A DNA stretch of 64,000 bases from Corallium rubrum (lineage: Eukaryota; Cnidaria; Anthozoa; Scleralcyonacea; Coralliidae): contig OZ035998.1 of the NCBI GenBank assembly GCA_964035015.1, forward strand, positions 13,722,958-13,786,957. Reading direction: 5' to 3'. The translations under genes and the position numbers were made by a program. Each line of letters begins with the position of its first letter. Positions within the stretch are counted from its first letter, which is position 1. Under the pieces are notes generated by a model, which had not been told where the DNA came from, did not search any database, and saw only the letters and a program-made list of their open reading frames with translations. Of the stretch, positions 15,201 to 33,200 are shown in pieces.

Positions 15201-18200
15201 AACTCCAGATATCATTGTTACCGCCTGGTCACCCTCATTATCCCTGTCAACCACCACACTGAAAAAGTGAATTATTCTTATTGTACAGCTACTGAATAGT
15301 CATGCATACCTTGCCGTTTCTTCTTCACAGTTGGTTTTCTGTCTTTATTATCTTTCTTTGATAGTATTTTATAGTGTTCGTCTTTAACGCTTTTTTGCAC
15401 TGATTTGTTTGAAATTTTGTGGTCCTCTTCCTCATCTTTATTGATCTTTTCCTGCTGTTCTGTTTCTAATGTTTTATTCATATCATCGCCATTTACATCA
15501 CCACTTTCATTGATAAGATTTGCTATATTCGTCTCATGTTGACTTTCTCTTTTTTCAGAAATTTCACAGTTTTCTTTAGGTTTTCCTTTACGGAGCTCTG
15601 TCAAATAGTTCTCTGTCAATAACAGAAGAAGCCGCACTTAATATAAACCTTGTAGACGAACTTCTCTTAGTAACATATCAAACCACGTGATTGAACTCAA
15701 CGCATGTTCAAAACTAGCTTAGTCCCAATAGTCAGAGCGTCTCACGTCAATCATACCCAACGAGGTTTGTACGCTATTATGAATAGGACAATAGTAGGCG
15801 TTCCTTTCGCTTTCCTCTGCAAGTAAGTCTTAGTTTAAACGATTTACTTCTTAAATATAGAAATAAACAAGCATCGACATAAAAAAGAAAACTTAGTCAT
15901 CTTAAGGTTTGATATACTGCCGAAACAGAGAACGTAGGAGTCTAACGTTTCAATTCGAGCGACGAAACGTAAAACGTAGCGAAAGAAACGTAAAGAGTGT
16001 AAACAAACAACGAGCTTAAGGCGGTTTTCCACTAGGCGACATTTGTCGACCGACTCGACATTTTTCTTTTGTCTTGGCTAATTAGTTCCACTCGAGAGCT
16101 TGCGAGACAAAAGAAAATGTCGCTTCGCGCGACATTTTTCGCCCAGTGGAAAACCGTCTTTATGTAAGAAAGATAATCATGTGACCAAAAATAAGCCAAT
16201 CAGATAAAAATAACAATAACAAATCAATATTGAGATGCGAAAGACATTAGTCATCTTACTCATCTTAGACCCCGTTTAAACGATGCCGGTACAATTTGAA
16301 AACGGAACAAAATCATGCCGGTATGCAAATACAGCATATAACATTTCATGTTATTTTTGTGCCGGTATCGTGTAAACGCAAGGCCTAAACGGCATGATTT
16401 TGTTCCGTTTTCAAATTGTACCGGCATCGTGTAAACGGGGTCTTAGTCATCTTTCAAATTGACAGTTGCAAACAAGATGAAAAAGAGATTAGACCGGGAG
16501 CTGTGTTTTAAAATTAGAAAAATAAATTGCAATTACTTAATTTATTACCGTGAATTTCAACAGTTGATAATTTTTGGTGAGCTTTCTCTACTTCTTTAAA
16601 AGTTGCACGTCTCGTTGCAAAAGGAATTGTTCTTATACGTAAGTCATCTAAACGGTTAATAAAATAAAATAAAGATCAGACATATAGTTTGACGCTATTC
16701 TGGCTTAATCGTTTTTGAAGGTAGTTTACAAAGTTACTGTTCGTGACTCAACGTTGGTACCAAGTTGACTCCTGGTTTATTATCAACATTTGTATCTAAC
16801 GGTTACTGGGAAAACAACAATAGGACTCCTTATTACTCCTTATAAGGTTATTCTCCTAAGATCTAGAAGTAGATTTTACGGAGAGGAGAAATCGGGAGAA
16901 CCCAGAGAAAAACCCTCGAAGCACAGTAAGATCCACGACAATAACTCTACTTACATGAGTCCCAAGCTTAAGCCCGACAATGAGATTATTCCCAAGCGGT
17001 CATTAAGTATTACCGACCTCATCCAATGCATGGACTTAACTTTAATCGCAGCGGTGATAAGCAACTCTTAGGGTCTGTTTATATGATCCCGGTGTACCGG
17101 GACGGGATGACAGCCGGGATGATTTTGATGTATTGAAATAAGTCAACACGTAAAACAGAAAAACCACGCGATGCCTGAAGAAACTCATATTTTGTTGATC
17201 TGATCCTAAAGTTAAAAGTGAATGATTGTGGCAATTGAAAATGGCTTTTGTTGAAGTTATTTAGTAATCTAGGCCTTGAAAAATGTAGGCGAAAGCTTTC
17301 CGATGCACATAATCAAAGACCGTGACTTATGTCAATACATCAAAATCATCCCGGCTGCCATCCCGTCCCGGTACACCGGGATCATATAAACAGGCCCTTA
17401 GCCACCCGTACTTGTCAAGACATATCCCTAATCTACATTCTTACAAAACCACTGACTATTTAATCTTTTCTTACCATTGTAATCATTATCACCTCAGTTC
17501 TTGCTGTAATAACTAAGCTGTTGATAAAACAATCTATCTACTCACAATCCATCTGTATTTGGTTGTGACGTTCATACTTACAAAATTTATTATCTATTAT
17601 ATACCAGTAACGTGTTTCCAAATGTAATCATGTAAGTATTTAATATTCAAAAGTGTGAATAAATTGTAGTTGTACGTTGTGTGTAGTGTAGTGTATTGTT
17701 AGTATATCATACACGAGGATGAGTGTTTCATCAGGATATCCAAACACTGAGACGTTTGTTGAAAACCGAGGCGAAGCCGAGGTTTTTGAAGAAACTTCGA
17801 AGTGTTTGAATATCCTGATGAAACACTCCTCCAAGTGCATGATATAGCATCTCAAACAAATAAGTATTTTATGAGAAAATCAAAGTAAGAGTTTGCTTAA
17901 TTTATGTAATTTCTTCCTCCGATATCCAAACCACAGACACACTCTAAAAACACTCTGGTTAAATAATCCTGGTTATTTAAAATTAACACTATTTGAGTCA
18001 ATATCATGGTGGTCAACCAGCATGCCTGGTCATTTTGTTTATCGTAAAATTGCGTCATTTTAGCTCAACCACGTTCCTGGTCAATTCGGAAACATAGCGG
18101 AGCTCTTCAAATTAAAAACAAAATGGCGGCATATTTCAACGGGAGTTACGGGACTGATTCCCTACTGAACAAAAAGTCTGAACAACAATGCGGTTTAGCA

Positions 18201-30200: not shown

Positions 30201-33200
30201 TAACCATAATTCATGGTTATTGCTCTTTCATTTAATCATGTTCTGGTTGTATTTATGGGTGTTTTACCAGGAATTTTGTTCAAATATAACCATAATTCCT
30301 GGTTACAGTTAATCAGGATCCTGGTAATATTTATAGTATTTAACCAGGCAGATTGTCAAATTAAAGACCATAATTCCTGGTTAAAATTAACCAGGATTCT
30401 GGTGAGTCTATTTCACAGGATTTCCTGGTCAAGTTAACCAGGATTGTGTGGATTGTATATTGACCCGGAGCCTGGTAGCAATTAACTCTATCCTGGTGAA
30501 GTTTAACCAGGCAGATTGTCAAATTAAATGACCATAATTCCTGGTTAAAATTAACCAGGATTCTGGTGAGTCTATTTCACCAGGATTTCCTGGTCAAGTT
30601 AACCAGGATTGTGTGGATTGTATATTGACCCGGAGCCTGGTAGCAATTAACCCTATCCTGGTGAAGTTTAACCAGGCAGATTGTCAAATTAATGACCATA
30701 ATTCCTGGTTAAAATTAACCAGGATTCTGGTGAGTCTATTTCACCAGGATTTCCTGGTCAAGTTAACCAGGATTGTGTGGATTGTATATTGACCCGGAGC
30801 CTGGTAGCAATTTAACCCTATCCTGGTGAAATTTAACCAGAGTGTTTTTAGAGTGCACGGTACTGATTTCCATTGTGTTTTCCTCATGCATTATTAATGA
30901 GTTTGAGATTTTAGTATACTATATCGTGTTATGTGTTGTATATGTTGTATATGTTGTACGTTGTATGCTGTATACGTACTACAACTAGACGTAACGTTAA
31001 TTGAAATATTTATATATAATTTTCGTGACTCTTTATACGATCTTTACCTTTCTTAAATGGAGGTTTTTTTCCTTCAAAAAACATCCGTTTATAATTGCTA
31101 GGCACTCTGATAAAAATCCTGTTACATTTTTCGATATGTTCACCCCAAGATTCCAACAAATTTTGGATATCCTATAAAATTCAAGCATTGTGGGAGGTGA
31201 ATGTTTTGTCAGAATGTATATAAAAATTTTGCAAGTAAAACCAATAAAATATCTACATTAAAGGCAAAGCACGTGTAACCACAAAAAAACCAACACAGCT
31301 ATTTTGTTTGTGAGGCGGTTTTCCCTCTATTTTAGCACACGTACGATACGGCCTTTGTAATTCCAAAACAAGACAGTCTTCTTTTTGTTTTTAATATATA
31401 ACTATATTCAACTGTTATTTCTTTTATTAAGCAACCGCAGTGATTGTAATTTTAAATTCTCAATCTATTCGAAATAGCTCAGTTTCCTAAAAATCTCGGC
31501 ATTTTACCAGCTTTTCTCACTGCTATACTCTATATGCAAAACACCGCCTACGATGCACTCTTACTACTTTTTACACTCTTGAACACTCAGTTACCTGAAC
31601 CAACGCAGCTTCGTTATAACGTCTCAAACTAGCACCAGCTGACCTGGTAAAAAGAAATAAAAAACTTAATTCATCGCCGGGCAGTGGGCAGAGTTAGTTG
31701 GCTTTAATTTCAACTAAGCCTTATTATTTACGTTGTGAAATGTGGTAGCTATTAAAGTCTAAATTTCGGTGTGTGTCTGTTTTCCAGATGTCATGCACAA
31801 AATAATTTGCAAATTGCACAATATTCCTTGTCAGTACCCTACGTAACTGTACGGCACCGTATGTATATGGTATCGTATTGTATTGAGAAAAATTGTGTAG
31901 AATTTTGTAAAGGAAAATATTTATAATATAAACATATCGTTGTTGATCTGATATCAAACACGGCAAGAAGTGTGTTGAAAAACCAAGACGAAGCCGAGGT
32001 TTTTAACCAACTCCGAGATGTTTTGACATCAGTCAGTCTTGGACTGGAAATAATATTTCAAGTCCTCTGCCCAGTACTTCCCTGGTATTTCAAGTCCCTT
32101 CACGTGGTGCAATTCAGCGCTTCTGATTGATTGATTATCTCATGAATTATTAATGAGTTTGAGAAATATTACTCCAAACTCCGTCTCGGTACTGATTTCC
32201 TTTGTTTTCATCTTATCGGAATTATTAATGAGTTTCAGAAGTTTGCTTCTTACTTTGGTTGATGTCCACCTTGCTTGCTGTCTCTTATTCCCTGCGCAGT
32301 TCCTCGCTTTGCTCGAACAGTGTAACGATGAAATGTTTTACGAACAACCAGATTATTCCTATAAAGTAATAAAAATGTGTTAACCATACGCAAATGTTCT
32401 TCCAAGTTTTTAACAAACCTAAATCTTCTATCAATTACTTTATGCAGAACACTATTGTTAAAACAATGATTAACAATGCACTGTTGATCTAGTTTGCAGC
32501 CACGCGTTTTCAGCCACGACATTGCAACAACTTGGGACTTTTTCGCCTCTACGTGAGAACGTGACAATTTACAGCGACAAAGTAACCACTAAAAGTCCAC
32601 TACCTTCCGAATCAGCCCACGGTCTTCATGAAATGGTATAGATCGATACCTTGTCCAAACAATTAAAAGCTTTCAACGGTTATTAACGGTCCTACTAATT
32701 ACTGCCCGGTGTCACAGGAAATGTGTCCCCCCAAAAAATGTGTCCCCCCCGGGACAGATTTCCTAGGAAATATGTCCCCCTCTTCGGAAATTTGTCCCCC
32801 CTCAGAATAATTCCTTACAAGGATAATTGATATACGTGTAATGTGGACAAAACTTTTTAAAAGTAAAAAATATATATTTCTGAATGATAAATTATAACAG
32901 CTAAATATATATTTACAAAAACTGCAATATATAAACTTCAAGTTTCGTCAGTGGTCATGGTCATGGTCATGCTGAATTTGCAATTTATTAGTTAAATAGA
33001 TGTTCAAGTTTCGTTTTATTATTGATTGTAACATTGTTGAGCTGATGTTTCAAAGCGTTGAAACAAACCTCGGTTTTCGGGTCTGGCATACTCTGAAAAA
33101 GGCACTATTTCAGCACGGGTTTTTCTCCGAAGCACTCGGTTTCAAAAATATAAAAACAAATACATTAATCATTGCCGACTGCGATTAACATTTCAATGGC

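Follow-up and report, generated by a model that had tools for sequence, protein, structure and literature searches.

We analysed a stretch of 64,000 nucleotides of Corallium rubrum DNA (GenBank assembly GCA_964035015.1, contig OZ035998.1, positions 13,722,958 to 13,786,957 of the forward strand; hereafter called the window), in which a 12,916-bp segment (17940-30855) is bounded by inverted ends and contains exons of a gene for a SAM-domain protein. Our analysis indicates that this segment is probably the non-autonomous deletion derivative of a CACTA/EnSpm (CMC) DNA transposon with two genes, one of which encodes the SAM protein as an accessory factor. A CACTA DNA transposon with an accessory gene is a known kind of element. 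In the open-licence PMC literature, we found no description of a SAM-domain gene in a CACTA/EnSpm element.

Ends, target-site duplications and subterminal arrays of the segment

An earlier note on this DNA had described exact 25-bp inverted ends around a 12.9-kb segment, with dense motifs next to them, and had regarded the segment as transposon-like. All three statements were confirmed. The 25-bp end CACTCTAAAAACACTCTGGTTAAAT occurs in the whole window once at 17940 and once, reverse-complemented, at 30831, and the inverted identity of the two ends is exactly 25 bp. The termini are CACTC...GAGTG: they have the CAC...GTG form of CACTA/EnSpm (CMC) elements and differ from a strict CACTA. Both flanks carry the dinucleotide CA as a 2-bp target-site duplication. 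The features of the two ends are as follows.

17938..17939, no strand: left target-site duplication CA
17940..17964, + strand: left 25-bp terminal inverted repeat, CACTC...
17965..18139, + strand: left subterminal region with three CCTGGT (17968, 18025, 18076)
30098..30830, no strand: right subterminal array of CCTGGT/ACCAGG, with a 164-bp unit present in 3.1 copies (30339-30840)
30831..30855, - strand: right 25-bp terminal inverted repeat
30856..30857, no strand: right target-site duplication CA

Counted on both strands, the 955 bp of the ends contain 30 CCTGGT motifs, of which 3 are at the left and 27 at the right. The interior of the element (11,961 bp) has 3, and the rest of the window (51,084 bp) has 19. 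In 2,000 first-order Markov random sequences derived from those 955 bp, the mean was 0.53 and the maximum was 4. The array is asymmetric, the tandem copies of the 164-bp unit being at the right end. The same subterminal pattern, which is characteristic of CACTA/EnSpm (CMC) elements, was repeated in all seven further copies in which it was counted.

Copies of the element in the C. rubrum genome

The own genome (474 Mb) was searched with both ends, and the match counts are lower bounds. The left 161 bp gave at least 21 matches and the right 526 bp at least 66. Eight further long copies, named here by their position, align along the window element.

C1:92115104: 9,811 bp
C28: 9,750 bp
C1:48834260: 9,745 bp
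C18:14449371: 11,972 bp
C18:2042727: 12,689 bp
C1:48720883 (to 48736830): 15,948 bp
C1:88064397 and C46: about 28.4 and 28.9 kb, respectively

Identity between the C28 copy and the window copy is 97.9% and 99.0% in the two main blocks of C28, so the spread of the element is recent on this scale. In a related subfamily, whose ends are about 77% identical, short copies measure about 3.76-3.96 kb and the copy on C13 measures 14.5 kb. Matching 2-bp target duplications were found in 10 of the 11 copies that could be located at both ends (eight TA, one CA, which is the window copy, and one TT); the C46 copy has lost its left terminus. Since TA is the most frequent target, a Tc1/mariner identity was considered; it was rejected because CA and TT duplications also occur and the transposase described below matches Transposase_21.

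Several copies contain further insertions. The copy at C1:88064200-88093000 is interrupted by 18.2 kb of inserted DNA; the inverted ends of this insertion are about 370 bp long and 96% identical, and we take its frames to be Polinton/Maverick-like. The C46 copy (C46:10660000-10679999) contains a 12.9-kb insertion with inverted ends CACAGATTAATAATATACAGATGTGG..., one frame of which resembles an Exo1/FEN-type nuclease. Within the left part of the C18:2042500-2055700 copy lies an insertion of 3.5 kb; its open frame of 1,085 codons resembles, by eye, the endonuclease/reverse transcriptase of a non-long-terminal-repeat retrotransposon. Furthermore, well over 12 right-end matches on many contigs are about 73% identical over 154 bp. 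These are probably non-autonomous relatives of the C20 family described below, whose own right end is among them.

Fuller copies carry a transposase frame inside the SAM-domain gene

The C1:48720883 and C46 copies contain about 6 kb that are missing from the window copy, and within this region there are stop-free frames of 831 amino acids (C1:48724721-48727213) and 830 amino acids (C46). In a genome search with PF02992 (Transposase_21), matches at C1:48725564 (29.4 bits) and C20:4841534 (29.6 bits) were both above the cut-off of 28.6. All four aligned transposases share two D positions and a CxxC without variation; two of them extend far enough to include H(3)H and E, and these two agree in both motifs (HFMTH and RFEAKH). 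A D, D, CxxC, H/E pattern is given for the CMCT clade in the available text of PMC12730594. Thus, the 830-amino-acid protein of the fuller copy is predicted to be a tnp2-type DDE transposase with a C2H2 finger, and its catalytic residues D, D and E were assigned by motif, not by structure. A PDB sequence search with the transposase gave nothing meaningful. Viral contigs were also scanned with it; one stretch fits a pattern, and no relative is encoded there.

The SAM gene surrounds this frame. In C1:48720883-48736830, nine exons (A-I) with GT-AG borders and consistent phases encode a protein of 439 amino acids. Exons A and B lie 5′ of the transposase frame and exons C-I lie 3′ of it, all on the same strand. 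Pfam models SAM_1 (8.3e-6) and SAM_2 (3.2e-4) match the protein. A PDB sequence search gave only weak SAM matches (best E value 0.019), which include Polyhomeotic and Bicaudal C. The 'SAMD3-like' proteins of vertebrates and cnidarians, and SAMD3 itself, likewise have a SAM domain followed by a long C-terminal region, and exons C-I may resemble the fish SAMD3-like proteins.

The window copy is a deletion derivative

The copy in the window is non-autonomous and has arisen by deletion from a two-gene CACTA-type element. Both it and the 9.75-kb form are without the approximately 6 kb at about 21761-21783 that hold the transposase and SAM exons C and D. The only extra block of the window copy relative to the 9.75-kb copies is 23358-26544. 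Because this block has CCC...GGG ends and a GCT duplication, it is a nested insertion. The interior features are as follows.

20738..20804, + strand: SAM gene exon A (start codon, first half of the SAM domain), 100% identical to the exon of C1:48720883-48736830
21036..21148, + strand: SAM gene exon B (second half of the SAM domain); in the fuller copy, SAM_1 matches over the spliced A+B protein
21761..21783, no strand: site of the 6.1-6.5 kb extra (transposase frame, SAM exons C and D) in the C1:48720883 and C46 copies
22112..22266, + strand: SAM gene exon E with a 1-bp insertion (frameshift), unique to the window copy among nine copies checked
22812..23008, + strand: SAM gene exon F, whose frame is disrupted (one 5-bp insertion, two 1-bp deletions)
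23358..26544, no strand: nested 3,187-bp insertion with CCC...GGG ends and the 3-bp duplication GCT; other copies do not have it here
26816..26969, + strand: SAM gene exon G
27256..27374, + strand: SAM gene exon H
28109..28418, + strand: SAM gene exon I (last)

The earlier note had proposed an intron-containing gene on the + strand and had recognised no transposase motif. The + strand SAM gene does exist; however, it is incomplete and frameshifted. The window copy indeed has no transposase, but one is present in its fuller relatives in the same genome. The nested insertion, the deletion and the CA target duplication had not been mentioned in the note. We also considered that the window copy itself might encode a transposase. 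This was rejected, since none of the frames of 45 codons or more in the uninserted C28 copy, read by eye, is transposase-like.

The nested 3,187-bp element has arrays of TTCATGAAC palindromes near both ends, and no long coding frame was seen in it. A piece 88% alike to it lies inverted inside the C18:14449371-14461342 copy. Directly 3′ of SAM exon I, the region 28633-29194 contains imperfect inverted repeats (110 nt, 84%; 78 nt, 78%) and forms a hairpin-like unit of about 560 bp, which may be another inverted-repeat element or a structured 3′ region.

Gene order and co-occurrence

The order A, B, transposase, C was found in the C1:48720883, C46 and C166 copies. In the C13 copy, whose transposase pieces have 73.5% and 77.3% amino-acid identity, the order is A (partial), B, transposase and C-G. 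The C20 family (59% transposase identity) has an exon-B remnant, an intact transposase frame and then exons E-I, the C/D stretch lying outside the sequence examined. Thus, the transposase lies in an intron of the accessory gene in the C1:48720883, C46, C166 and C13 copies, and this layout is partly visible in C20. In a further family, whose transposase is only about 32% identical, the 3′ side of the transposase carries, in the same orientation, a SAM exon followed by three short exons similar to C, D and E; no SAM exon was found 5′ of the transposase in this family. Its SAM gene gave 16 matches at four loci (all 15 candidates scored). At all four SAM loci the transposase of this family lies 2-10 kb 5′ on the same strand, and the SAM gene is present at four of the five transposase loci, the exception being C56:6024926, which has no SAM match.

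The earlier note had suggested searching the genome with both ends for intervals of 1-20 kb that recurrently encode the SAM protein. The outcome was positive. A genome search with the SAM protein gave 189 candidates, of which 96 were scored and 93 were not; the 97 scored matches form 22 clusters. At least one correctly oriented end lies within 30 kb of 21 clusters, and 17 have both. The 17 paired intervals mostly span 3.8-17 kb, and nested insertions have lengthened two of them to 28-29 kb. The transposase is still present in 8 of the 22 clusters. No SAM match outside the element loci was found among the 97 scored (93 of the 189 candidates being unscored). Conversely, SAM exons lie on the same strand within 30 kb at 9 of the 10 transposase loci whose best match is 59% or higher, the exception being C1:35931028. 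The input consisted of all 97 SAM matches, all 21 left ends, 25 of the 66 right ends and 20 of the 58 transposase matches; the entries left out were inner repeats belonging to these ends, additional short ends with about 73% identity, a small C2 fragment and transposases with about 26-43% identity. Because cluster C276 joins two matches that are 19 kb apart, no credit was given for its right end (16978-17281), which lies directly beyond the exon at 16420-16722.

Purifying selection on both genes

Both the SAM gene and the transposase are under purifying selection. The ratio of nonsynonymous to synonymous substitution rates (dN/dS) was calculated pairwise by the Nei-Gojobori method for the C1:48720883 copy against the diverged subfamily. 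The transposase, compared in two pieces, gave ratios of 0.134 (599 codons, bootstrap 0.097-0.176) and 0.115 (203 codons, 0.062-0.192), and the SAM gene gave 0.099 (339 codons, bootstrap 0.061-0.151). Because dS exceeds 1, these values are rough. Three single exons were saturated in the comparison. Of 500 bootstrap rounds each, 23 for the SAM gene and 1 for the second transposase piece gave no value. Exon A was left out, its search string not being found in C13. As C13 has a frameshift in H and is without I, the 3.76-kb copy served as the partner for exons H and I. In exon E, a core of 28 residues (GKGLHSATGWIEERLRNVRRRT with its lead-in) is identical at 28 of 28 positions in spite of 16 synonymous differences.

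The insertion site and other features of the window

The two minus-strand exons that flank the segment, when read jointly, match Pfam PF18826 (bVLRF1) with an E value of 1.1e-22. We take the bVLRF1 domain to be the mark of ANKZF1/Vms1. Because the flanking exons give this match, the element is intronic in ANKZF1 and in the opposite orientation to it. This agrees with the earlier note, which had placed the segment wholly inside an ANKZF1 intron. In the same intron, a 79-nt inverted repeat (17067-17401, 95% complementary, 177 nt spacing) looks like a small inverted-repeat element. Elsewhere in the window there are a satellite of about 4.9 kb (46855-51794) with 254 copies of a 19-bp unit (TGCAGTGTTGGTAGTCTTC), a 17-bp tandem array (13828-15084) and an exact 373-bp duplication (41498-42245).

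Discussion

The layout of the fuller copies can be compared with that of maize En/Spm. As described in the available parts of PMC2613891 and PMC1636069, intron 1 of tnpA contains the En/Spm transposase frames, the two proteins are both required, and the subterminal repeats are the binding sites of TNPA. En/Spm (tnpA/tnpD) shares with the coral element a transposase placed in an intron of a same-strand, multi-exon accessory gene, subterminal arrays, a tnp2-type transposase and internally deleted non-autonomous derivatives (PMC2613891, PMC1636069). According to the same available text, the accessory proteins of other plant CACTA elements are unrelated to TNPA in sequence (PMC2613891, PMC1636069). 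The coral element differs in its SAM-domain accessory protein, CACTC termini, 2-bp duplications and animal host, and the comparison with TNPA is one of layout, not of sequence. En/Spm makes target duplications of 3 bp and its termini are CACTA.

Among animal elements, SmTRC1 and the other TRC elements (Schistosoma, Tribolium, Aedes) are also members of the CACTA superfamily with Transposase_21 and 2-bp duplications; in contrast, their termini have a CCC core (PMC1636069, as far as its available text goes). The same part of that paper reports alternatively spliced TRC products without the transposase domain; those of SmTRC1 are reported there to be without detectable relatives, and no SAM domain is mentioned in that part (PMC1636069). 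Extra protein genes beside the transposase are further described, in the available text, for the CMCT clade and for ESTA, an EnSpm-like element with TA duplications; unlike the coral element, ESTA is fungal and carries TET/JBP genes (PMC12730594). The likeness to ESTA is one of description, not of a tree.

We propose the following mechanism. As predicted from its motifs, the transposase would cut and paste the element. The SAM protein, which would be expressed with it from a shared transcript, occupies the position of TNPA and by analogy most likely assists by binding the subterminal CCTGGT repeats. The basic conserved region of exon E, or the C-E region, would contact these repeats, and self-association of SAM domains could join the two element ends. 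The SAM protein perhaps also regulates transcription. The window copy, in which neither protein is intact and the cis ends are kept, would have been moved in trans.

Several observations weigh against this proposal. The termini are CACTC rather than CACTA. When the two transposases were scanned directly with Pfam, they scored 26.6 (4.1e-6) and 26.9 bits, just under the cut-off of 28.6. The transposase frames of the C166 and C13 copies are broken, the SAM exon E of the C46 copy has a 1-bp deletion, and C1:48720883 is the only examined copy in which both genes are open. At the C13 copy, the target duplication does not match and the right terminus is mutated. A Pfam scan of the SAM protein gave no known DNA-binding domain and no model beyond residue 60. 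In the 32% family, the assignment of the three exons that follow the SAM exon is based on their order and on short motifs, the tblastn E values being 0.01-0.8. Finally, most loci of the 83 Transposase_21 matches in the genome are without a relative of this SAM gene; therefore, the SAM partner belongs to one CACTA transposase lineage here.

The earlier note had left it undecided whether the SAM protein is part of the mobility machinery or cargo. The conserved wrapping of the SAM gene around a CACTA transposase, together with purifying selection, tilts the balance towards machinery and suggests that in the fuller elements the SAM protein is part of the moving machinery and not a passenger. That the gene is host-derived cargo, captured by the element and without a role in transposition, seems to us unlikely. 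CACTA elements are known to capture host exons, the SAM protein has no recognised DNA-binding domain and the SAM gene is broken in most short copies. However, its dN/dS of about 0.10 over 339 codons is not above that of the transposase of the same elements, it also accompanies transposases that are only about 32% identical, and 97 of the 97 scored SAM matches lie in element loci, no host copy having been found (93 of 189 candidates unscored). Because of the low dN/dS of the SAM gene and the identity of the exon E core, a functionless passenger is unlikely. It is very improbable that the transposase frame is a separate transposon inserted in a SAM intron, the true element then being the SAM gene and the ends with another mover. 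The shorter copies, including the window copy, are without exactly that region and yet have moved. Against this, the short copies are also without SAM exons C and D, so these copies represent a deletion rather than an empty site; moreover, the transposase keeps its position both in the 59% family and between copies with about 24% nucleotide divergence, and by eye no inverted repeats were seen at the ends of the extra 6.1-6.5 kb.

The SAM protein might instead be an anti-silencing or regulatory factor (acting, for example, on chromatin or piRNA) and not a transposition factor that binds the ends; we regard this as rather unlikely. SAM domains are common in chromatin and RNA-regulatory proteins, and Polyhomeotic and Bicaudal C are among the weak PDB matches. 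Maize TNPA also regulates its own promoter, according to the available text of PMC1636069. Nothing speaks directly against a regulatory factor. A TNPA-like role, which can combine the two functions, fits better with the dense subterminal arrays and with a SAM gene that encloses the transposase. Our preferred reading is still that of a two-gene CACTA-type transposon with the SAM protein as its accessory factor.

A broader idea, which we put forward tentatively and hold to be doubtful, is that animal CACTA elements have a SAM-based, TNPA-like accessory protein of their own, whose gene would enclose the transposase as in maize En/Spm in spite of seemingly unrelated proteins, and that the widespread 'SAMD3-like' genes of animals, SAMD3 included, are copies or domesticated descendants of this transposon gene. 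So far, little has been clear about the accessory proteins of animal CACTA elements. A conserved SAM partner would be a concrete candidate for such a protein and would provide a testable model for the joining of the element ends; it would also imply that SAM-domain gene models in animals may have to be re-examined as possible transposon genes.

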